This document shows positions 23,150-36,862 of a DNA stretch of 64,000 nucleotides, one piece after another. The stretch comes from Silvibacterium bohemicum. GTDB taxonomy: Bacteria > Acidobacteriota > Terriglobia > Terriglobales > Acidobacteriaceae. Made by a program: the position numbers and the translations under genes. The notes beneath the pieces are model-generated. The model worked only from the letters and a program-made list of their open reading frames with translations. It made no database searches and was not told where the DNA came from. The DNA lies in assembly GCF_001006305.1 (NCBI RefSeq), contig NZ_LBHJ01000003.1:857709-921708 (forward strand), given 5' to 3'. How positions within the stretch are numbered: position 1 is the first letter of the stretch; every line of letters starts with the position of its first letter.

Positions 23150-23791
23150 TCAGACTCGCATCGGCATGACCACGTACTTCTGCTGATACTCCGGATTGAA
23201 AGACTCCGGTGTGATCACAGCGGCAGAAGAGCCATTCTTCAGCGCTACCCGCACCGCACCTTCGGTTCCAATTGTCTTAAGGAACTCGGCGATGTAGTGC
23301 CCGTTGAACCCGATGGTCAGCTCGTCGCCGGTGTAGCTGGTTTGCAATGCCTCCTGCGACTCGCCGCTACCCGGCGCGGAGGCGCTGACGGTCAGAGCGT
23401 TCTTGTCGATATGCAGGCGGATGCCGCTCGACTTCTCATCGCTGAACTGCAGCACTCGTTGCAATGAGCCCATGAAGTCAGCGGCTCCAAGCACGATCGA
23501 GTCCATCGCCTCGCGCGGGATAATCGCGTCGTAGTTCGGGAACTGGCCGATGAGCTTCCTCACACTCAGTGTGCGGTGACCGATCTGGAAGAAGATCGTG
23601 TTCTCGGACTCACTGAACTCGACGGTTTCATCTTTGCTCGATCCAAACAGCGAGAGTAGATCGCCCATACACTCCCGAGGCAGCAAGACCTTCTGGTATC
23701 CGTCGATGGCCAGGCCGTCTTCCTGTACTTCGACGAGTGACAGCCTGTGGCCATCGGTAGCGACCATGCCCATTCGAGGCAGGATGAGCAT
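23150..23791 (-). pseudogene. dnaN: 5'-truncated DNA polymerase III beta clamp (dnaN)
   Basis: This frame encodes the last ~213 residues of a sliding clamp. Homology starts at LMLILPRMGMVATDGHRLS, which in a full clamp of about 370 residues lies near residue 140-160, and runs to the normal C-terminus YVVMPMRV. Domain 1 and part of domain 2 are missing. There is no ribosome-binding site before the internal ATG at 23791, and the frame upstream is antisense to another gene. A full clamp cannot form from this piece, so it is probably a relic, though a short product cannot be excluded. The break sits exactly at the start of the + strand basic protein gene. Confidence 0.75.
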
Positions 23792-24104
23792 AAGCGGTGC
23801 TGTAGCTGAGTTGAACAACGAGATTGAGCGTCTTAATAGCGAGATTGAGCGCGTTACAAAATTGCGTGACCAGCTGTTGGAAGGTTCGCCGGAGACGAAC
23901 TCTGCGCGTGCTGAAACCGCTGCTTCAACTCGGAAGCCCAGAGTTGGAAAGAAGGCTGTGACCGCTGCCAAATCTGTATCAGCGAAGAAATCAGTTCCAG
24001 CCAAGAAGTCAGTTCCGGCCAAGAAGAGAACGCTCTCCGCTGCTGGCCGGAAGGCCATCTCGGATGCCGCAAAGGCACGTTGGGCTGCTAAGAAGAAGGC
24101 CTAA
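23784..24104 (+). CDS. Lys/Ala-rich basic protein with coiled-coil start
   Basis: A 106-residue protein starting with a short coiled coil (VAELNNEIERLNSEIERV), followed by a Lys/Ala/Pro-rich tail with AKKSVPAKKSVPAKK tandem units, and a C-terminal helix (SAAGRKAISDAAKARWAAKK) typical of small Acidobacterial basic proteins. The composition resembles histone-H1-like DNA-binding tails. An 18-base direct repeat in the DNA (about 23980-24020) encodes the Lys repeats. Ribosome binding could use GAGG four bases upstream, which lies within the broken end of dnaN. Likely DNA-binding or compaction; specific role unknown. Confidence 0.65.
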   Translation: MSISGAVAELNNEIERLNSEIERVTKLRDQLLEGSPETNSARAETAASTRKPRVGKKAVTAAKSVSAKKSVPAKKSVPAKKRTLSAAGRKAISDAAKARWAAKKKA

Positions 24105-24181: not shown

Positions 24182-24739
24182 CTACGCGGCTTGATCGAGT
24201 TGCTCGCCTTCATGGTTGTCTTCGTTGATCTCGGAGAGGATATCGTCCTCTTCGGCGACGCTCGTCTGCGGCACATTCGTTTCGGCTGCCGGCTCTGGTG
24301 CCTGCGACTCGGCAACGGACATATCAAACAAGCTTGCAGTCTTTGGCCGAGGCGGCTGTACGGGCTCCGGAGGTTTGGACGTCTGCTGTGAGGGCTTCGT
24401 GACGGTAACGCTGTTCGTCGCCTTGTTCACCGGCGTCTTGGTCTTGGCGCGGGCCTCTGCCTGTGCTGTCTTTGCGGCCGCATCCATGTCGGCCTTGGCC
24501 TGGGCAAGCGTGTTCTTCAGTTGAAGGTGGGCACCGACGAACTCGACCAGCGTCCGTCCCAGGTCCGCGTCGAGTTCCTCGACCGTTCCTGTGACTGTGA
24601 GAGGTGTCGTGAGGGCGTTGTTCTCATCGTCCTTCAATTTCCTGGGGAGGACATTCACACGGATCTGATCATCCTTGGTGGGGGTTATGGTCATCAGTAT
24701 GGCGCGATGACGCAGGACAGGTGCAAGCTCCTGGAACAT
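24182..24739 (-). CDS. PRTRC system protein E
   Basis: A 185-residue protein matching PRTRC system protein E in its first 100 residues: MFQELAPVLRHRAILMTITP, then RVNVLPRKLKDDENNALTTP and the block with EELDADLGRTLVEFVGAHLQL. The remaining part is an Ala/Pro/Thr-rich, acidic tail of low complexity, typical for the family. An AAGGAGCC site precedes the ATG. It is the last gene of the PRTRC operon in this window (minus strand). The biochemical role of protein E is not established; in the cassette it accompanies E1-, E2- and ubiquitin-like proteins. Confidence 0.85.
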   Translation of the reverse strand: MFQELAPVLRHRAILMTITPTKDDQIRVNVLPRKLKDDENNALTTPLTVTGTVEELDADLGRTLVEFVGAHLQLKNTLAQAKADMDAAAKTAQAEARAKTKTPVNKATNSVTVTKPSQQTSKPPEPVQPPRPKTASLFDMSVAESQAPEPAAETNVPQTSVAEEDDILSEINEDNHEGEQLDQAA

Positions 24740-24780
24740 GGAGGCTCCTTTGTTAGATCGGTTGTTTGGGAAGGGTGCTG

Positions 24781-25089
24781 TTACCGCGGACGCGGTGTCT
24801 CAATCTCGGGATCGTCCCACCGGAGGGTGTAGCGCTCCCCGAGAGCGAGAGACTTCAGATACGCCTCGGGATCATGATCTCGTTGCCAGAGCAGGCGATA
24901 CATAGCATTGACCGCCGCCTTCATGATCCGTTTCATCTCTTCATCCGAGACATGGGAGAACTCGGGCTTTCCAGCGCAGACCGCGCAGGCATTTCCTGCG
25001 TGAAGGTCTTCGATGGGACCATTGCGGAAGGCGAGTGCAGTGATTGCCTTGGCTTCGATAGCAAGAGAAGGATCGATCCCATGTTTCAT
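24781..25089 (-). CDS. Hypothetical protein in PRTRC operon, 102 aa
   Basis: A 102-residue protein starting at ATG 25089, which follows GGAGG by eight bases. It contains one CAVC pair (NACAVCAGK) that could hold half a metal site, and a helical middle (DEEMKRIMKAAVNAMYRLLW). It lies 41 bases upstream of the protein E gene in the same orientation. Not recognised as any known PRTRC component. Confidence 0.55.
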   Translation of the reverse strand: MKHGIDPSLAIEAKAITALAFRNGPIEDLHAGNACAVCAGKPEFSHVSDEEMKRIMKAAVNAMYRLLWQRDHDPEAYLKSLALGERYTLRWDDPEIETPRPR

Positions 25090-25151
25090 GGCGGTGCCTC
25101 CGCTAAGGTCACAATAGCGCAGAAGGGGCATAGTCCGCTGCACTCTCATGC

Positions 25152-25808
25152 TCAGTACTTTTCGTAGGTGGGGTTGTAGTTCTTGCTGGCAAATTCACGC
25201 AGCACCGAGCGCGCCATTGCAAGTGCCTTCAAAGCCAGAGGGCTGGCAATATCTTTCAACGAAACATCGTCTACGGCGAGTTGATGAGCGATGCGAAGCA
25301 ATACCGCCATCGCTTCTCGGACAAGATCAAGCGTGCCTTCTTCCGTCCAGAAGTCGCCAAACTCGCGCTTGCGGATCTCACCATGCCATGTTGGATTACG
25401 CATGTAGCCGAGTTTCTCGCCAAGTCTTACCGGAAGACCATGCACGATGTTATTCCGGATAGTGAACCCTGAGCGCGCCGCTGCGCACCATCCTTCAAGC
25501 AAAAGCCGTTCGTCCCCGAGGGCTAAGGTTGCTGCGAATCTTTCCAGCATTGCAATCAAATCAGAGATCATTTTTGAGTCAGTGTCCGGCTTGATTCCTT
25601 TCGGATCAATCTTCCGAAGCCTCCACAAAGCCCGCTCAAGATAGTGTTCGATGGCGCCGGAAAATGTCACGATCGCTGCTATCTTCTGACCGACCGGTAG
25701 ACTCAGGCCCAATCGATCCTGGGCTAAATCAGCGTTGCCAAACTCTGCCATTGCTCCTGTCATATCGAATAAGATTACGCCTGCTGTCAGCTTTCTCCTG
25801 ACGATCAT
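25152..25808 (-). CDS. Hypothetical helical protein with RX4H motif
   Basis: A 218-residue protein predicted to be all-helical. It has FTIRNNIVHGLP with Arg118 and His123, an RX4H motif at the end of a helix as in HEPN-type proteins, so it may be a fourth member of that superfamily in this element. It sits between the ThiF and E genes of the PRTRC operon, where other PRTRC elements keep other genes (such as protein A or ParB). The start is uncertain: 25808 has no good ribosome-binding site, and an ATG with AGGAG lies about 20 codons downstream. Confidence 0.5.
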   Translation of the reverse strand: MIVRRKLTAGVILFDMTGAMAEFGNADLAQDRLGLSLPVGQKIAAIVTFSGAIEHYLERALWRLRKIDPKGIKPDTDSKMISDLIAMLERFAATLALGDERLLLEGWCAAARSGFTIRNNIVHGLPVRLGEKLGYMRNPTWHGEIRKREFGDFWTEEGTLDLVREAMAVLLRIAHQLAVDDVSLKDIASPLALKALAMARSVLREFASKNYNPTYEKY

Positions 25809-25855
25809 CTTGGCGCGCTGCCCCCCCCTCGAAACTATTGCTCAGAAGCTGTCTA

Positions 25856-26665
25856 CTAGAGTGACGCTCGGGAGCGTTGCAACGATCTCCTGCGCGTCTT
25901 TCTCCACAACTCCGGATCTATTGGGAGGGCTGACATATGCCCGGTTACGGCGTTGAAAAAGGCTCCGTGGTGTTTCAGCTTTCCATGGCGGAACAGCCTA
26001 GCGAGCATGGCAAGAGCGCTCATCGCAAGCGTTTGGTTGATGAACGGTTCCTGCCGGTCCAGGGCTTCGATCGCCGAGCAGCTTGGCAGCGGATCTTCTG
26101 CCTGCTTCACATCGGAGACCTCAGGATAGAGTTCGGTGACGGTGCGCAAGCGCTCGGCCTTCCGATGGTTGCGATCGTTGAGGGGCTGTCCGAGGATGTA
26201 TTGTCCGCTCGCGGCGTTGTTGCCGAGATCGAGCCAGTAGCCGGTCCGGTTGAGCGAGCCTCGGAGTGCCTCCTCGATAGTTGCTCGTGCAGCACGGGTG
26301 TCGACGCAACCGATGACGATGTCCGGATGGAGATCGTTGATCCGTGCACGTTTGTCGAGGTGGAACGGAAGAGCCTTCCATTCCGTTCCCCAGAACAGGT
26401 TGATGCGATTGATGAGGACGGTGGCTTTGTTGAGGCCGATGTCGGAGATGGAGAACGGTTGGCGGATGCAGTTGGTCTCGGAGACCACGTCTGCATCCAT
26501 CATCGCGACCTCAAGGCCCTGGCTTCGTCCCCACGCACGCATCGCCTGATCGAGATAGGGCAACCCCATTGCGATGGCGCTGCCTGTGCCCCCGGCACCA
26601 ACGACCAGTACTCGGACTCGCCGGTTTTCGAGCAAGCCGGCGGGGATGATGTGCTCGATGCGCAT
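25856..26665 (-). CDS. PRTRC system ThiF family protein (E1-like)
   Basis: A 269-residue E1-like adenylating enzyme. The nucleotide-binding loop VVGAGGTGSA is at 21-30, followed by the Asp of MMDADVV (56-58), the Arg-finger region ETNCIRQPF (63-71), Lys80 and GCVDTRAARA. A conserved C-terminal segment PSCSAIEALDRQEPFINQTL carries Cys196, the likely catalytic thioester cysteine. ThiF in PRTRC operons is expected to activate the C-terminal glycine of protein C. It starts two bases after the stop of protein B, so translation is coupled, and it is followed by the RX4H gene. Confidence 0.88.
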   Translation of the reverse strand: MRIEHIIPAGLLENRRVRVLVVGAGGTGSAIAMGLPYLDQAMRAWGRSQGLEVAMMDADVVSETNCIRQPFSISDIGLNKATVLINRINLFWGTEWKALPFHLDKRARINDLHPDIVIGCVDTRAARATIEEALRGSLNRTGYWLDLGNNAASGQYILGQPLNDRNHRKAERLRTVTELYPEVSDVKQAEDPLPSCSAIEALDRQEPFINQTLAMSALAMLARLFRHGKLKHHGAFFNAVTGHMSALPIDPELWRKTRRRSLQRSRASL

Positions 26666-26667
26666 GC

Positions 26668-27375
26668 CTATGTACGGCCTCCCTGGATGAATTGAATGAG
26701 CGTTTCGGGGAGCGCGATGAGCGAGTCCTTCGGGAACGTCACGCGCTTGCTCGCGAGCGCGCTCCACAGACCGTCGAAACCGCCCTTGTGCCGGGTGAGC
26801 CGGCCGACATTCGAGTGCGAGAAGTTTGATTCATAAAATCCCTGTTCCCACGATGCGATTGCGGCGACCGATGCGCTCTCCGGCCTGCGCATGGAGCCTG
26901 TGCAGACGGAGCCGTTATGCGAGAGATTCCAGAACGGCGCCACCGCGAGCTTTGAGGTGGCAGTCGGTCGCTTGTTCTCGATCAGTGCACGAATTCGCAG
27001 GCTCCCCTCCGAGACATGCCATACAAGCGGCGGTTGTGGGAAGACCTTGCCATTGAGGTGCTTTACCTTGCCTTCGGAGTTCTTGTAGAACATCGCCCGG
27101 CGGCGCTGGGGCGTCCACCATGCGATCATGCGGTCGCCTTTCGCGAGGACATTGTCGGGCAGGATCTCTGCCTTCACGTTGCCGCCCACGGACCGGACAA
27201 GGGCATCGATAAAGCTCACCGTCAACTGCTGTGCGGGACCAAGGACTGGAGGCGCACTCTTGGAGAGGGTTACCTCGTGCCTGGTGACGAAGCTCGTGCC
27301 GCGTCCCTGGTAGACCAGCAGAGCATCATGCAGCTCGAAGTGATAGTTCTCCCCGATCGACGTCTCTACGTTCAT
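26668..27375 (-). CDS. PRTRC system protein B (E2-like)
   Basis: A 235-residue protein of the PRTRC B family, which has been linked to prokaryotic E2-like (ubiquitin-conjugating) folds. The segment PFWNLSHNGSVCTGSMRRP at 147-165 has Cys158 in the position of an E2 active-site cysteine. The start matches the family (MNVETSIGENYHFELHDALL). It overlaps the upstream F gene by 50 bases and ends two bases before the ThiF start. Inference from family: it would accept the ubiquitin-like protein from ThiF and pass it to a target. No E3 or target is visible. Confidence 0.82.
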   Translation of the reverse strand: MNVETSIGENYHFELHDALLVYQGRGTSFVTRHEVTLSKSAPPVLGPAQQLTVSFIDALVRSVGGNVKAEILPDNVLAKGDRMIAWWTPQRRRAMFYKNSEGKVKHLNGKVFPQPPLVWHVSEGSLRIRALIENKRPTATSKLAVAPFWNLSHNGSVCTGSMRRPESASVAAIASWEQGFYESNFSHSNVGRLTRHKGGFDGLWSALASKRVTFPKDSLIALPETLIQFIQGGRT

Positions 27376-28462
27376 GGTTCGACCCCCAGTTTTGAATGTC
27401 CTCGACCAGTTGGAATAGCTCGCAGTTGAAGAGGATGAAGCGTTCTACGATTCGCTTTGCCTGGCGGACTTCGGCGTCGTCGTGTGGTGAGAACACGATC
27501 GACAGCGCTGGCTCGGGCGAGGTCTCCAGCATGTGCTGGCTTTCCTCATCGAAGCACGCCGCGATGGCATCGTGTTGTTTGAAGACAACCAGCAGCGAAG
27601 GCAGGGGCAGGGAATCGTAGTAGCCGTCGGAGAGGTCCTTGCCCGACTTCGGGTAGAGGCGGGAGAGCGTCTGCATCCGGCGTAGCCTCGCGATCCATGC
27701 TCCGAACTTCCCATCCATGTGCTTGAGAAGGAGGCGGCGGTCCTTGATTTTCCGGTCTCCATGCTTGAGCGTCTTGCGAATGCACTCCGGCAAAGTCTTC
27801 TTGACCTCAGGGAACTCGTATTGCTCTCGGGCTTCCTCATCTTCCTGATCCGCCCATTCGTGCAGCTGTTCTTCATGCATCAGGGCATCGTCGTGGTTGT
27901 AGACGCGCATGACGCGATAGAGCGCACTCGTGAGCTGCCAGTAGAAGGCGGCTCCCAGGCCTCTCTTTTCCTTCTCAAGGGCCTCGATCGCTTCGCCAAT
28001 CTCGAAATAGCCGCAGTTTCCGGAGTTGATGAGGACCGCGAGTTCACGCGACTCGAGACCACGGTCATAGCCGTACCGCTCGATAACATCACCGACCTGA
28101 AGATGGTATTCAAGGTTGCGTTCGAGCAGATCGATCCGCTCGTCGGTGATCGCAGCGCGTAGGACGTTCTGCACGAACCGGTTGCCGCTGTCTCCCGCGT
28201 TGCTCCAGTGGGACGGCTGGCCGATTCCGCAGCGCACAAGGCAGGCACACAGATCGTAAAGCAGCTCAGAATGGACTTCGTGCGCGTAGAAGGTCGGAAC
28301 ACCATTGAAGGTGGGAAGGGCGTGGCCGAATTGCCCCGCGAGTGTCTCTACGCGAGCGGTGGGAGCAACTCGGAAGGTGGCAGCAGTCTCGGGTCTCCCG
28401 GACTGATGTAGTGATGTGCTGCGGACGCGACGGCCTCGGAGAGGTTGCGGGACTCTTTGCAT
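27326..28462 (-). CDS. PRTRC system protein F
   Basis: A 378-residue protein in the position and of the length of PRTRC protein F. It is helical, with charged segments (ADQEDEEAREQYEFPEVK) and a repeated acidic/basic mix; no catalytic motif is visible. Typical family strings include FVQNVLRAAITDERIDLLERN and AFYWQLTSALYRVMRVYNH. A GTGAGG site lies eight bases before the ATG at 28462, which overlaps the preceding small gene by 115 bases, and its end overlaps the start of B. Its role within the ubiquitin-like system is unknown. Confidence 0.72.
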   Translation of the reverse strand: MQRVPQPLRGRRVRSTSLHQSGRPETAATFRVAPTARVETLAGQFGHALPTFNGVPTFYAHEVHSELLYDLCACLVRCGIGQPSHWSNAGDSGNRFVQNVLRAAITDERIDLLERNLEYHLQVGDVIERYGYDRGLESRELAVLINSGNCGYFEIGEAIEALEKEKRGLGAAFYWQLTSALYRVMRVYNHDDALMHEEQLHEWADQEDEEAREQYEFPEVKKTLPECIRKTLKHGDRKIKDRRLLLKHMDGKFGAWIARLRRMQTLSRLYPKSGKDLSDGYYDSLPLPSLLVVFKQHDAIAACFDEESQHMLETSPEPALSIVFSPHDDAEVRQAKRIVERFILFNCELFQLVEDIQNWGSNHERRDVDRGELSLRAA

Positions 28463-28581
28463 TTCAGATGCCTCACCAGGAGTTCGTTCGGGCCACTGGG
28501 AGGAGCATTGGCCTTGGCCGCAAAGAGCGCCAACAACTCCTCCCTGGTGATTCCGTTGGTGCCTTCGTTTGGCCCCGTCAC
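28348..28581 (-). CDS. Hypothetical small protein between PRTRC C and F
   Basis: A 77-residue protein starting at GTG 28581, three bases after the protein C stop codon, with GAGG just upstream. It has an N-terminal helix (TREELLALFAAKANAPPSG). The long overlap with F (115 bases, different frame) is unusual, but the C-terminal codons still read like protein. No family recognised; it could be a PRTRC accessory gene or an artefact of overlapping frames. Confidence 0.45.
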   Translation of the reverse strand: MTGPNEGTNGITREELLALFAAKANAPPSGPNELLVRHLKCKESRNLSEAVASAAHHYISPGDPRLLPPSELLPPLA

Positions 28582-28584
28582 GCC

Positions 28585-28800
28585 TCAGCCTTTCGTGCCG
28601 ATGGCGCGGTCGAAGGTGTAACGGAGGGCGGAGCCGGTCGCGTCGGGGCCGGTCATGGTTGCGGTTGCGATCTCCGGATAGCTCGGCGTGAGGAAGTCGC
28701 GAACTTCATCGACGCTCATCTCGGGCGCGGGATCGGGGATGCGAACTCCGTTGAAAAAGAATTCGCGCAGCAGAACTTCCGTCTTGAGGGCGGTAGCCAT
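28585..28800 (-). CDS. PRTRC system protein C (ubiquitin-like)
   Basis: A 71-residue protein of the PRTRC C / Prok_Ub family, a small beta-grasp ubiquitin-like fold. Matching parts are TEVLLREFFFNGVRIPDPAP, then MSVDEVRDFLTPSYPEIATA and the final FDRAIGTKG. The chain ends in Gly71 directly, as a mature ubiquitin-like protein would, so no peptidase would be needed to expose it. An AAGGAGAAG site precedes the ATG. It is probably the substrate activated by the ThiF protein encoded in the same operon. Very short, so family assignment rests on length, context and the conserved C-terminus. Confidence 0.85.
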   Translation of the reverse strand: MATALKTEVLLREFFFNGVRIPDPAPEMSVDEVRDFLTPSYPEIATATMTGPDATGSALRYTFDRAIGTKG

Positions 28801-30610: not shown

Positions 30611-30868
30611 CTAGCTCGAAGCGTTGGCCGTAATCTCCTTGCGTGCCGGAGCGGGCTGCACCAGCTTCGGCTGTTCGAAGAACGGGGAGTTCTCGCCCTT
30701 GCCGACGAGGTCGATGAACTGCAGCTCCAGCTTCCCGGACTCGATGATCGTCTGCGCCGTCTCGTAGATCGCTTTGGCGCGTTGCACTTCCATTGGGTGG
30801 TCCGGGTCCTTGAGTGCCTCGATGGTCTCAAAGAGATGATTGCGAAGGTCTGTGATTTTGTTCTTCAT
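30611..30868 (-). CDS. Small phage-type helical protein, 85 aa
   Basis: An 85-residue protein opening MKNKITDLRNHLFETIEALK, then MEVQRAKAIYETAQTIIESG. This pattern is common in phage and prophage genes that directly follow HNH endonuclease genes, as it does here. AAGGAAAA lies before the ATG. It overlaps the HNH remnant's stop region by 41 bases. Function unknown; the phage-like gene order suggests that a phage segment was joined to the element at the VirB4 break. Confidence 0.6.
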   Translation of the reverse strand: MKNKITDLRNHLFETIEALKDPDHPMEVQRAKAIYETAQTIIESGKLELQFIDLVGKGENSPFFEQPKLVQPAPARKEITANASS

Positions 30869-31140
30869 CGATTTTCCTTATCTGGCGCTTGAGCGAGGCA
30901 CCGAGTCGGATGAGTTCGGTCAGCTCCGGCGGGTAGTTGTGAATCGTGTTGCGTCGCATCAGCTCTCGGCGAGAGATGAGTTCGAAGTTGTCGAGGGCAA
31001 CGTGCGCCTTGTTGCCGTCCTTGAATGCAACGGCAAAGCCATTGGGAACCGGCCCGTGGGCCTTTTGCCAGATGAGGATGTGTTCTCCGACCCAGTCTCT
31101 GGGCGGATAGCCTGTGTCGGACACCTTGCGTTGCAGGTAC
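30828..31140 (-). pseudogene. HNH endonuclease C-terminal remnant
   Basis: The frame reads YLQRKVSDTGYPPRDWVGEH, then HGPVPNGFAVAFKDGN, ALDNFELISRRELMRRN, which is the second half of a phage-type HNH homing-like endonuclease (the H-N-H core and the LISRRELM box). The N-terminal DNA-binding part is missing. Upstream of about 31140 the sequence switches to VirB4 in another frame. It has no own start codon with a ribosome-binding site. Confidence 0.72.
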
Positions 31141-32160
31141 CTGCAGCAACTGGGCCTGCGCTACTTCAGCCTCCGCATTAATCTTGAAGTTTCCGTTCGC
31201 ATCCTTCTGGGCAGCGGTCATCTTTTGAAGCCGCTTCTTGTATCCCTTCAGAACTTTCACTTGATCTGGAACCAGAACTTGACCGCTCACCACGACAGGG
31301 AATCCAAGAGTGGAGAATTTTTGCAGCATTCCTGGGAACGTGGCGTCGGGAAGTTCCTTCAGGCTGATGACTGAATAGAGGTATCCGTCTATGTTGAGGT
31401 AGCTCTCTGTCTCATTAAGGATGCTGGACTGTGTCACCTGTTCTCGCGCGCTGCGATACTCCAACGTCTCTTCGCCCGGGATGTAGCTACGATAGGTTCG
31501 GCGAGTGGGGTGTTGGGAACTCTCCAAAGCCTCGAACAGCTCCTGCGTTGAAAGTCGGCGCGGACCAAGAGACGCCACCTCCATCGAACCTTCAACACCA
31601 CGAAGTAACGATTCAAACTCGGCCAGAAATGTCTCATGTTCTTTGCGCAGGCGCTGGATCACCTTTTTCTGTCCCATCGTGAACGCGCCAAGCTTGCGGT
31701 TCTGCTCCGCCGAGTGATACAGCTTGGCGTGGATCCTGGGATCCCAGATGTAATAGACATGGAGCCTCGGCTCGAAGTAGTAGCCTCCTTCCTCTTTCTC
31801 GCGCCACATATTTAGCCGGTGCGCATCAAGAGCCATGACTTCCGATTGCTCTGCACGACCCTGATCGATGTAACTATCAAGCAGGCTGCCGAGATGTTCG
31901 GAGATTTCATAGCGAAACTGAATGCGCATGCTGACATCTGGAACTCCGCGTAACAGAGCTTCGAGTTGAGACTTGCTACGATTCCGGTCATCGTCGGTTG
32001 CGAAGTAGGACTGGATGCCTTTCAACTCATAACCGGCAACGAACGCTCCGTTCGTCCGCACCATAATGTTGTCGCCCATCGGGAGGTCACGCAGAGGGAA
32101 GAGCTCGCACATGGCAGGAACCTTCAACGTTTTGTCGTGTTGTGCGTAGGTCATTGGCAT
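31141..32160 (-). pseudogene. Truncated VirB4-like T4SS ATPase (N-terminal 340 aa)
   Basis: The first 340 residues of a VirB4/TraC-type conjugation ATPase. The family N-terminus (MCELFPLRDLPMGDNIMVRT, NGAFVAGYELKGIQSYF) is well preserved, but the chain stops being VirB4 after AEVAQAQLLQ. The Walker A and B ATPase domain (normally in the second half of about 800 residues) is absent. The frame continues for 91 codons that are only the HNH region read out of frame. GAAGGAGAAG precedes the ATG, which overlaps the preceding 65-residue gene. The product cannot power secretion, so the T4SS is broken here unless another copy exists. Confidence 0.78.
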
Positions 32161-34915: not shown

Positions 34916-36334
34916 TCAGGCGATCCTGGATGTTGGTTTGCCTCCGCCAACCAACTCCAGTCGTTTTCCATTGCCCACAGAACGTGAAGCTCTAGGCGCG
35001 TTGTTGTCGGGGCCTTCACCGGGCGTCTCGCCGACCTTCCATGCGGCGCGCACACTGGCCTGAAGCTGCAGCTGCCTTGCCTTTACGAATGGGGCGTAGT
35101 GTCTCTCGGTAACCTTCACAGAGGAGTGCCCAAGGAGCGTCGAAACCTGATCGATCGGCACACCCGCGAGGAGCATCTCGACCGCAAAAGTGTCGCGAAA
35201 CATGTGAGGATGGCAGCGCTTTTTCTGGCCGTCGAGCTTTCGAATGTCGGCCAGCTGGAATAATCGGCGAAAGCTGCGTTGCCAGTTGGCGACAGCGCTC
35301 TTAGGAAGACCATTGCCGCTCCAGAAGAAGTATCGCTTGTTAGGCACGGGACCTTCAGGGATATTCACAAGAGCTTCGACGACTTCAGGCGGAAGCGGAA
35401 CGTAGACACTCTGTCCGGTCTTCGCCTGATACAGAAGCAGGTTGTCGCCCTGAAGGCGATGTCGCTCGAGCGTGACCGCATCGCGGATGCGAAGCCCACT
35501 CCAGCGCATGAGCAATGTCAGAGTGTGAAGCCGGGTCCGAGTGTCTTCGACGCTGAGATACCCGCCACGAGGATCGCCATAGAGGACGATGGCATCGATG
35601 ATCCTGTCGAACTCGTCCCTTGGGAAATAGTCGGTCGGGATATGCTTCGGTCGGATCTTGCTGAGCGAGAGCGCCGGGTTCTGGGTAATGAAGCCGCGCC
35701 TGAAAGATTCCCAGAAGAAACCCACGACCCGGTCCTGCTTCTTTGCCTTGACCACCATACCCTCGGTCCAGGTCGTGCGGTAGGTGAGCAGGGCGTTGTG
35801 GTCGAGCTCGTCGAGATACACGAGTCCTTCGGTCTTGGTCCACGGCAGGAACTGTTTTTCGAAGAGTCGCTCGAGCTTCTTGACGGTGTCTGTCTGAAGG
35901 TTCCGGCTGCGCGCGTCAGCCATGTAGACCTCAACGGCCTTCTGGATGGTGACTCTGGTCCTCTGACGGCTTGACGGAATAATCTCCCCATCCAGTGCAA
36001 GAGGAGATTGGGCTGGCTCTGGCTGAGCAGAGGAAGGGACGATGGCTGCGCCGAGCATCTCCGGCGATGTCTCGGCTTCGATGTGAGCAGAGGTGCTGGC
36101 TGTTGGGGTGAGGTCTGAGTCGAGACTCGAGAGCGGGCGTCCGCTGGCCAGAGTCTCTTCGAGCTTCTGTCGAAACTGCTCCGCCTCGTCCCAGAGACGG
36201 GTCGAGGCACTCTTGCGAACGCGCTCACTGTTGAACCGGGCTTCCACCCACTTGGGGCAGTTGCAACGGCGATAGAGGCGGTCTCGTTTGTACTTGCAAT
36301 CGGAGGCGTGGCGGGTGAACACGAATGAATCCAT
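34916..36334 (-). CDS. int: Tyrosine recombinase / phage-type integrase
   Basis: A 472-residue integrase. The catalytic set is visible: Arg282 (WSGLRIRDA), HMFR at 377-380, His403 (LGHSS) and Tyr413 (RHYAPF). The N-terminus has a Cys cluster (Cys13, Cys24, Cys26; RRCNCPKW) before a SAM-like core-binding domain near 125-230. AAGGAG lies before the ATG at 36334; the frame is open for a further 26 codons. Its start lies 176 bases from the 3' end of the tmRNA gene, the expected place for an integrase that recombines within the tmRNA acceptor region. It probably integrated this element. Confidence 0.92.
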   Translation of the reverse strand: MDSFVFTRHASDCKYKRDRLYRRCNCPKWVEARFNSERVRKSASTRLWDEAEQFRQKLEETLASGRPLSSLDSDLTPTASTSAHIEAETSPEMLGAAIVPSSAQPEPAQSPLALDGEIIPSSRQRTRVTIQKAVEVYMADARSRNLQTDTVKKLERLFEKQFLPWTKTEGLVYLDELDHNALLTYRTTWTEGMVVKAKKQDRVVGFFWESFRRGFITQNPALSLSKIRPKHIPTDYFPRDEFDRIIDAIVLYGDPRGGYLSVEDTRTRLHTLTLLMRWSGLRIRDAVTLERHRLQGDNLLLYQAKTGQSVYVPLPPEVVEALVNIPEGPVPNKRYFFWSGNGLPKSAVANWQRSFRRLFQLADIRKLDGQKKRCHPHMFRDTFAVEMLLAGVPIDQVSTLLGHSSVKVTERHYAPFVKARQLQLQASVRAAWKVGETPGEGPDNNAPRASRSVGNGKRLELVGGGKPTSRIA

Positions 36335-36422
36335 GGGAGGCTCCTTGAAGTGCAGCGGGAGTCTTGCCCGGATGGAAAATTCGGTCAAAGTTTCGGACGT
36401 CTTTCTACCCAACGGCCGTCGT

Positions 36423-36509: not shown

Positions 36510-36551
36510 TGGTGGAGGCGGCGGGAGTCGAACCCGCGTCCGAAATCGTTG
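36510..36551. other. Probable attachment site (tmRNA 3' end)
   Basis: The 3' end of the tmRNA lies on the border between the integrase side and the chromosome. Tyrosine integrases of elements found at ssrA usually cross over in this segment. A matching direct repeat at the other element end was not found within the window. The exact core is therefore unknown. Confidence 0.5.
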
Positions 36552-36862
36552 TCAACAAAGAGAGGCTCCATGCTCAGTCCTGTTCCGGAAGTTTCGCTTT
36601 GCGCGCTCAGAACGGACAAGATGCGCGCATTGCTAGTCCGTGGATCTCGCCTTCATGACCCGTACCCAGTCGTGAAAGCCAGCCCGCTGTGCGACGTCCT
36701 TTCGCGGCCCGCAGGCAAAGCCACGAAGAACGGCAACTTAATTAATTAAGCTGCGAGTGCGAATTGAGGTTCGGCACTTGTGATTTTCCGAGCGATTACG
36801 GGTGCTCAGACCCCGACATGCCTCTTTGCCGCAAGCGATCCCGTCGAAACCGTGACGCCCCC
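36510..36862 (-). ncRNA. ssrA: Transfer-messenger RNA
   Basis: The minus strand from 36862 begins GGGGGCGTCACGGTTTCGAC, pairs its first seven bases with CGCCTCC near the 3' end, and finishes CCTCCACCA (CCA encoded, 36510-36512). The TPsiC-like arm CGGGTTCGACTCCCGC is present. In the middle, the tag frame reads AEPQFALAA and then TAA TTA ATTAA, the usual end of an ssrA tag. Length 353 nt. tmRNA rescues stalled ribosomes and tags proteins for degradation. Its 3' part is the integration site of the element to its left and is intact. Confidence 0.95.

Follow-up and report, generated by a model that had tools for sequence, protein, structure and literature searches.

A probable PRTRC-type ubiquitin-like conjugation cassette without protein A, carried by an integrated mobile element of Silvibacterium bohemicum

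Can a bacterial ubiquitin-like conjugation cassette do without its own JAB peptidase? The question is raised by a PRTRC cassette in a 64,000-nucleotide stretch of the genome of the soil bacterium Silvibacterium bohemicum (the window), where the genes follow one another on the minus strand in the order C, F, B, ThiF and, beyond two accessory genes, E (24182–28800). On balance we consider this a PRTRC cassette for ubiquitin-like conjugation in its A-less form, borne by an integrated mobile element, a judgement made jointly with the mechanism proposed below.

An earlier note on this DNA had described E1-like, E2-like and ubiquitin-like proteins encoded together with proteins E and F. HMM scans bear this out, weakly in the case of F; the PRTRC family cut-offs are passed by ThiF, B, C and E. 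Protein C, ubiquitin-like and 71 residues long (28585–28800), scored 85 bits with TIGR03738 (cut-off 46) and 77 bits with PF14454. Its C terminus reads RAIGTKG and the stop follows Gly71 directly, just as the note had it. Protein B (26668–27375), E2-like of the Prok-E2_D type, scored 173 bits with TIGR03737 (cut-off 131) and matched PF14460 at 3e-39. The E1-like ThiF protein (25856–26665 from an ATG start, with a GTG frame extending to 26767) reached 261 bits with TIGR03736 (cut-off 145), and in alignments with many relatives the similarity begins at residue 35 of this longer frame. Protein E (24182–24739) scored above cut-off with both TIGR03741 (63.5 bits, cut-off 38) and PF19556 (33 bits). 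Protein F (27326–28462), mostly helical, occupies the F place and fits in size; its TIGR03742 match is weak (17 bits, below the cut-off of 58.4). Relatives of it were found by blastp in 64 of 84 Acidobacteriota loci, and a profile that we built from annotated F proteins together with the window sequence groups the latter with the former. The predicted structure of F (pLDDT 79) gave no fold match in the PDB at E ≤ 0.001. A PADLOC search for defence systems returned weak E1–E2 matches to ThiF and nothing else.

The cysteines that the note had singled out, candidate catalytic residues, proved invariant in aligned relatives. Cys158 of B, together with His187, is conserved throughout an alignment of 42 sequences. 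Cys196 of ThiF, the cysteine of the PSCS motif (counted from the ATG at 26665; residue 230 in the long GTG frame), is invariant in 11 sequences, as are the GxGGxG motif and the Asp/Arg/Gln/Lys positions. Transfer of the ubiquitin-like protein through the E1 and E2 cysteines is predicted from these residues. The E1 profile found the NEDD8 E1 catalytic subunit as its top match in the PDB (1.1e-8). Foldseek found nothing in the PDB at E ≤ 0.001 for the predicted structure of B (pLDDT 88.7), and the 50 matches listed include no E2, which does not demonstrate a fold different from that of solved E2 enzymes; B is a putative E2 by its Pfam family and by Iyer et al. (2006; PMC1779556). Values of dN/dS, rough because dS exceeded 1, were 0.03–0.11 when C, F, B and part of ThiF were compared with locus L092 (0.03 for C, of which this is the nearest relative) and 0.10 when E was compared with locus L052.

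Protein A, which the note had reported as absent from the window and wanted sought elsewhere, is lacking from the genome as a whole. The PRTRC A model (TIGR03735) found none in the 6.46 Mb at E up to 10, a search in which 14 control genomes were also without a match. With known A-bearing records added, the model matched 11 of 29 records or genomes, this genome not among them. Neither was PRTRC A found in seven other cassette-bearing Acidobacteriota genomes, in one of which (G440) ThiF was not found in the fetched stretch. The absence of ParB also stands, there being no genome match above cut-off: TIGR03734 gave two matches below its cut-off of 278.6, both on other contigs, the best with 119 bits on contig C4. 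Protein D (TIGR03739) had no match in the genome, nor in any control.

The window cassette shares the E, C, F (weakly), B and ThiF families with the PRTRC cassette (NCBIfam TIGR03734–TIGR03742), as represented by Cupriavidus metallidurans pMOL28. It differs in having no A, no PRTRC ParB above cut-off and no detectable D, and in the position of E, which follows ThiF here whereas in the classic arrangement it precedes C. Moreover, C of pMOL28 is tailed (GAKG-AYAQI), whereas C of the window is not.

The relation between tail and protein A was surveyed in 233 loci, in 194 of which the ubiquitin-like protein was recognised. The sample is biased, and a scan of genome contigs contributed the best 80 of 252 matches. 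All 60 ubiquitin-like proteins with a tail past the G-x-K-G-like end had A adjacent, and in all 123 A-less cassettes with a recognised ubiquitin-like protein the latter ends exactly in Gly. The remaining class, cassettes with A and without a tail, made up 11 of the 71 cassettes with A, and A-less cassettes with a tail numbered zero. Among 91 rows under 65% identity the respective counts were 25 (A, tail), 59 (no A, no tail), 7 (A, no tail) and 0 (no A, tail). Hence a one-way rule holds in the sampled loci: a tail comes with A, and A is absent only where the gene for the ubiquitin-like protein ends at the mature Gly. The converse, that presence of A means a tail, was dropped when further plasmids and viral contigs raised the tail-free cassettes with A to 11. 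Exceptions could hide among the 39 of 233 loci with an unrecognised ubiquitin-like protein, 32 of which are without A.

These counts lend support to the note's suggestion that a ready C-terminal Gly makes maturation by a peptidase unnecessary, and the absence of A solely where trimming is unneeded fits A as the maturation peptidase. The A-less form, 123 of the 194 loci in this biased sample, recurs in Acidobacteriota, viral contigs and plasmids; the window cassette is less singular than the note had thought and belongs to a large A-less class. The state of A changes five times on the tree, so that independent origins are few. Of the three starred independent pairs, a mean of 1.4 agree and 1.6 show no difference, with none disagreeing, and sign tests for independent origins of the association between A and tail were not significant. 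In the midpoint-rooted tree, a sphingomonad cassette with A and without a tail (L227) branches, starred, beside the clade of Acidobacteriota A-less cassettes, which also contains one viral contig; this position is as expected if tail loss preceded loss of A.

All 70 A-bearing loci in which each of B, A and ThiF was recognised carry A between the other two. In Pelobacter, the 71st case, A lies beyond ThiF; its cut locus had looked A-less, a classification rejected once A was found across the record origin. Protein C of Pelobacter ends in GTKA. In 115 of 122 A-less loci, fewer than 300 nt separate the open reading frames of B and ThiF, and in the window the two are contiguous, so that the slot of A is closed. 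The note had seen two unknown genes where the missing proteins might have been. For A this does not hold, because A belongs between B and ThiF, and as substitutes for A the two genes are rejected on account of that position and of the lack of a peptidase family match. The first (24781–25149, minus strand), between ThiF and E, had no above-cut-off family match; by eye, an open reading frame in L052 (8457–8798) resembles it. The second (25152–25808, minus strand) matched DUF4209 below cut-off (E 0.0022) and had no blastp relatives in the surveyed loci; its RNNIVH motif, the RX4H of the note, makes its product a candidate HEPN-like protein.

On the mobile element, a truncated gene for the DnaN sliding clamp (23153–23800, minus strand; PF02768 7e-19, PF02767 7e-7, PHROG 947) adjoins E. 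By blastp it aligns to residues 206–422 of a 422-residue frame in L079, the first half being missing. A DnaN gene lies on the cassette strand in 31 of the 233 loci. The element has a tyrosine integrase gene (34916–36412, minus strand; PF00589 8e-20), and a tmRNA gene (36510–36862, minus strand; ARAGORN) is the likely integration site. For the left end, copies of the tmRNA 3' end region were found at 691 and 696 kb of contig C12 (691425 and 695697), all of them imperfect, so that the boundary is tentative. By eye, one of these copies lies beside another integrase-like gene in L027.

The explanation we favour builds on what was observed directly, namely the gene content, the invariant candidate catalytic residues, the low dN/dS, the absence of A and the one-way tail rule. 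ThiF would adenylate the C-terminal Gly71 of C, which would then pass via Cys196 of ThiF to Cys158 of B by thioester transfer, and B would attach it to target proteins, most likely held or selected by E and F. Where present, protein A would trim the tails of C and probably also take C off its targets. In the window the gene for C no longer encodes a tail, and A, which would thus be unneeded for maturation, is absent; it was presumably lost rather than never gained. As a whole, this relay of tail-free C, ThiF and B seems to us the probable account of the cassette.

Deconjugation might instead be left to the host, a chromosomal JAB or another host protease stripping C from its targets and making the system reversible. 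The genome has one JAB match (85 bits, C9:288710), and at least one JAB above cut-off occurs in all eight searched Acidobacteriota genomes with an A-less cassette, this one included. The chromosomal JAB of this genome could act in trans. By eye, however, its neighbours are a cysteine synthase-like gene on one side and a MoeB/MoeZ-like E1 gene on the other, the setting of row 4c in PMC1779556, by which it has a partner of its own; nor is it picked up by the PRTRC A model. We regard such reversal by the host as unlikely. More doubtful still is that C serves as a sulfur or small-molecule carrier like ThiS or MoaD. The E1 is of the ThiF family and the free Gly at the end of C would lend itself to forming a thiocarboxylate, but B of the Prok-E2_D type accompanies all 194 recognised ubiquitin-like proteins, the terminus is G-x-K-G and not GG, and ten scanned cassette-region proteins include no sulfur metabolism family beyond the ThiF/MoeB-type E1. 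That the cassette is being lost from a broken element, as the half-missing DnaN and a truncated-looking TraC/VirB4-like frame (30865–32160, overlapping the position of an HNH gene that lies in a different frame) might suggest, is very improbable given five open genes of family length, dN/dS of 0.03–0.11 (four genes) and 0.10 (E) at dS > 1, and the recurrence of the A-less form across Acidobacteriota, viral contigs and plasmids.

The E2 families of Bil and Bub operons are not known to include Prok-E2_D. Like the window, the Bil (BilABCD; PMC11354881) and Bub (PMC13373217) operons, in the parts of these papers available, combine a ubiquitin-like protein, an E1 and an E2 in one bacterial operon. 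By the same part of PMC11354881, Bil retains a JAB-family gene, whereas the window has no PRTRC A, and the JAB-family enzyme reportedly cleaves BilA before the latter is used. The type 6d operon of Iyer et al. resembles the window in its ubiquitin-like protein, E1, E2-like protein with a downstream His and helical protein. In the available part of that paper the JAB gene of type 6d is always adjacent unless fused, JAB is predicted both to process and to remove the ubiquitin-like protein, and neither A-less forms nor a link between tail and JAB were found. The literature searched gave no published function for bacterial PRTRC cassettes, and among the matches listed no publication showing PRTRC conjugates or, from titles and abstract starts, dealing with A-less cassettes, covariation of tail and JAB or a link to DnaN.

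For the proposed A-less conjugation system, the recurrent same-strand DnaN neighbour is the first concrete candidate for a target or process. It is conceivable, at long odds, that C is conjugated to the element's own DnaN or to DnaN-docked proteins, a mark which, with a tail-free C and no dedicated deconjugase, would disappear only through dilution or through the action of the host; if true, this would be a bacterial parallel to the ubiquitin and SUMO marking of PCNA. The absence of JAB only where the surveyed gene ends at the mature Gly is comparative evidence on the role of JAB, and it points to a minimal set of three proteins, C, B and ThiF, for reconstitution with no trimming step.

In the window, the PRTRC ubiquitin-like conjugation cassette forms a single run on the minus strand, in the order C, F, B, ThiF, two accessory genes and E. 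The profile checks proposed in the earlier note confirmed the ubiquitin-like protein (Ubl) C (28585–28800), the E2-like B (26668–27375), the E1-like ThiF (25856–26665, from an ATG start) and E (24182–24739) over the NCBIfam and Pfam cut-offs, and gave weak support for F (27326–28462). The claim that C ends at Gly71 was borne out, the stop codon following directly after ..RAIGTKG. The cassette is a real, open and conserved variant, lacking the JAB peptidase A, of a known cassette for which no function was found in print.

In ThiF the GxGGxG loop, the Asp, Arg, Gln and Lys positions, presumably as in the adenylation site of E1 enzymes, and the cysteine of the PSCS motif are invariant among 11 proteins. 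Cys196, as named earlier, is correct when counted from the ATG (residue 230 of the long frame) and invariant in the 11. The best solved-chain match of the ThiF profile was the NEDD8 E1 catalytic subunit (1.1e-8). In B, the predicted catalytic Cys158 and also His187 are invariant in an alignment of 42 sequences; the same combination, a cysteine plus a downstream histidine, is described for type 6d E2-like proteins in a 2006 paper (PMC1779556). The confident model of B (pLDDT 88.7) gave no PDB match at E ≤ 0.001 with Foldseek and no E2 among the 50 matches listed, so that the basis for calling B an E2 is Pfam PF14460 together with that paper. A fold search with the model of F (pLDDT 79) likewise gave no PDB match at E ≤ 0.001, and for C no solved chain was alike in sequence at E ≤ 1. 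Rough dN/dS values against the nearest relative, L092, with dS >1 (C 0.03, F 0.105, B 0.07, part of ThiF 0.04), point to purifying selection on these genes.

At all 70 A-bearing loci in which the three genes were found, A lies between B and ThiF; Pelobacter, with A not between the two, is the exception. Of 122 A-less loci, 115 have a gap of under 300 nt between the open frames of B and ThiF, and 13 have less than 2 kb of sequence on one side of these genes. The two unknown genes which the earlier note had set at the place of A are not there: both are encoded on the minus strand between ThiF and E. One (24781–25149) has a look-alike in the relative L052. The other (25152–25808), with no blastp relative among the surveyed loci, matches DUF4209 under the Pfam cut-off (0.0022) and bears RNNIVH, which we take to resemble a HEPN motif.

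A was also sought elsewhere in the genome (6.46 Mb, 25 contigs, completeness rating 99.98%), of which the window covers C12:857709–921708, as had been proposed. The A profile TIGR03735 gave nothing up to E = 10, the control genomes of that search also being without a match. A second search, run on 29 records or genomes that included known carriers of A, matched 11, nine of them over the cut-off. The eight Acidobacteriota genomes with a C-type A-less cassette, this genome among them, gave no match; one of the eight, G440, shows no ThiF in the stretch examined. The single JAB match of the genome (contig C9, C9:288710) lies between cysteine synthase-like and MoeB/MoeZ-like genes, judged by eye, and is read as part of a sulfur-metabolism operon. 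PRTRC ParB had no match over the cut-off in the genome, and PRTRC D none there or in the controls.

The relation between A and the tail, i.e. Ubl residues past the mature end, was surveyed in Acidobacteriota loci (n = 80, the best 80 of 252 matches to the E1 of the window, these 80 all labelled as Acidobacteriota or genera of that phylum), IMG/VR loci in batches of 77, 9 and 15, and stretches of 29 plasmids, one phage and further genomes. Ubls were called with our own profiles and their ends read from alignments. Of 233 loci kept, 194 had a recognised Ubl. A was absent in 123, all without a tail and all ending in Gly; a tail without A occurred in none (0/194). With A present, 60 Ubls had a tail of 1 to 122 residues and 11 had none, among these L018, where A was entered as present by hand because it turned up across the origin of the circular record. 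In a thinned set of 91 rows, all below 65% identity, the counts were 59 (A absent, no tail), 0 (A absent, tail), 25 (A present, tail) and 7 (A present, no tail). The Ubl was unrecognised in 39 loci, 32 of them without A, and a looser motif scan of the 39 gave one candidate, ending GTKG, in the A-bearing L270.

The A-bearing Pelobacter propionicus pPRO1 (L018, L291) has a C ending GTKA, the sole non-Gly mature end among 134 tail-less Ubls. A second Ubl type, ending HKG, TKG or similar plus 1–84 residues, occurs with E2, JAB and E1 (L239, L240, L242–L256, L055, L056, L225, L258, L259) in Acidobacteriota of other families and on cyanobacterial plasmids, with multiple copies in some genomes.

Because tails depend on a peptidase, none is expected where the peptidase is missing; after tail loss the peptidase could persist for other work, for example taking the Ubl off targets. 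The one-way pattern expected if the tail requires the peptidase but the peptidase may outlast the tail is the pattern seen, and the earlier note was right that a ready C-terminal Gly spares the peptidase. The pattern also agrees with PMC1779556, which predicts two roles for JAB, processing the Ubl and removing it. In a quick tree with SH-aLRT support only and a midpoint root, the sphingomonad L227, with A and no tail, sits on a starred branch beside the A-less Acidobacteriota clade, as would fit a history in which the tail was lost before A. On this tree the state of A changes only 5 times and that of the tail 8 times. Being unrooted, the tree does not distinguish gain from loss; among its starred independent pairs (n = 3, too few for a sign test to reach significance) none ran opposite and about half showed no difference.

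A TraC/VirB4-like frame (30828–32160, minus strand) looks truncated; it extends over a position that in a different frame holds an HNH_3 gene, an arrangement suggestive of a deletion that joined the two. The 3′ end region of the tmRNA recurs in imperfect copies about 200 kb leftward on the same contig, at C12:695697 and C12:691425 (L008, L009, L027), one of them immediately next to a further integrase-like gene; the island is perhaps large or stacked. On an Oscillatoria plasmid (L259:6808–10005) an annotated cGAS/DncV-like nucleotidyltransferase and a SAVED protein adjoin the cassette, and three plasmids (L219, L287, L289) carry a phosphoadenosine phosphosulfate reductase(-family) gene no more than a few kb from theirs.

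Beside E lies a truncated DnaN sliding clamp (homologous part 23153–23800, minus strand; PF02768, 7e-19), in which whatever corresponds to residues 1–205 of the frame found in the relative L079 is missing. DnaN was found in the stretch examined at 31 of the 233 loci (the window, 5/84 Acidobacteriota, 18/98 viral and 7/50 others) and was absent from it at 202. It is on the cassette strand in all 31, three of which carry A (L226, L257, L258), and at 12 of the 18 viral loci no more than 100 nt separate the DnaN end from the opening of the E frame. Of the 29 cassette plasmids, Pfam places a DnaN somewhere on 11 (9 over the cut-off) and none on the other 18, against 251 of 72,556 plasmids matching one plasmid DnaN by tblastn, raw counts from searches of unequal sensitivity, not adjusted for plasmid size or relatedness. 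This neighbourhood suggests that the cassette may serve replication or repair of mobile DNA, with DnaN as a candidate target. What is new is the rule that the tail comes with A, together with the linkage to the clamp, and both are testable.
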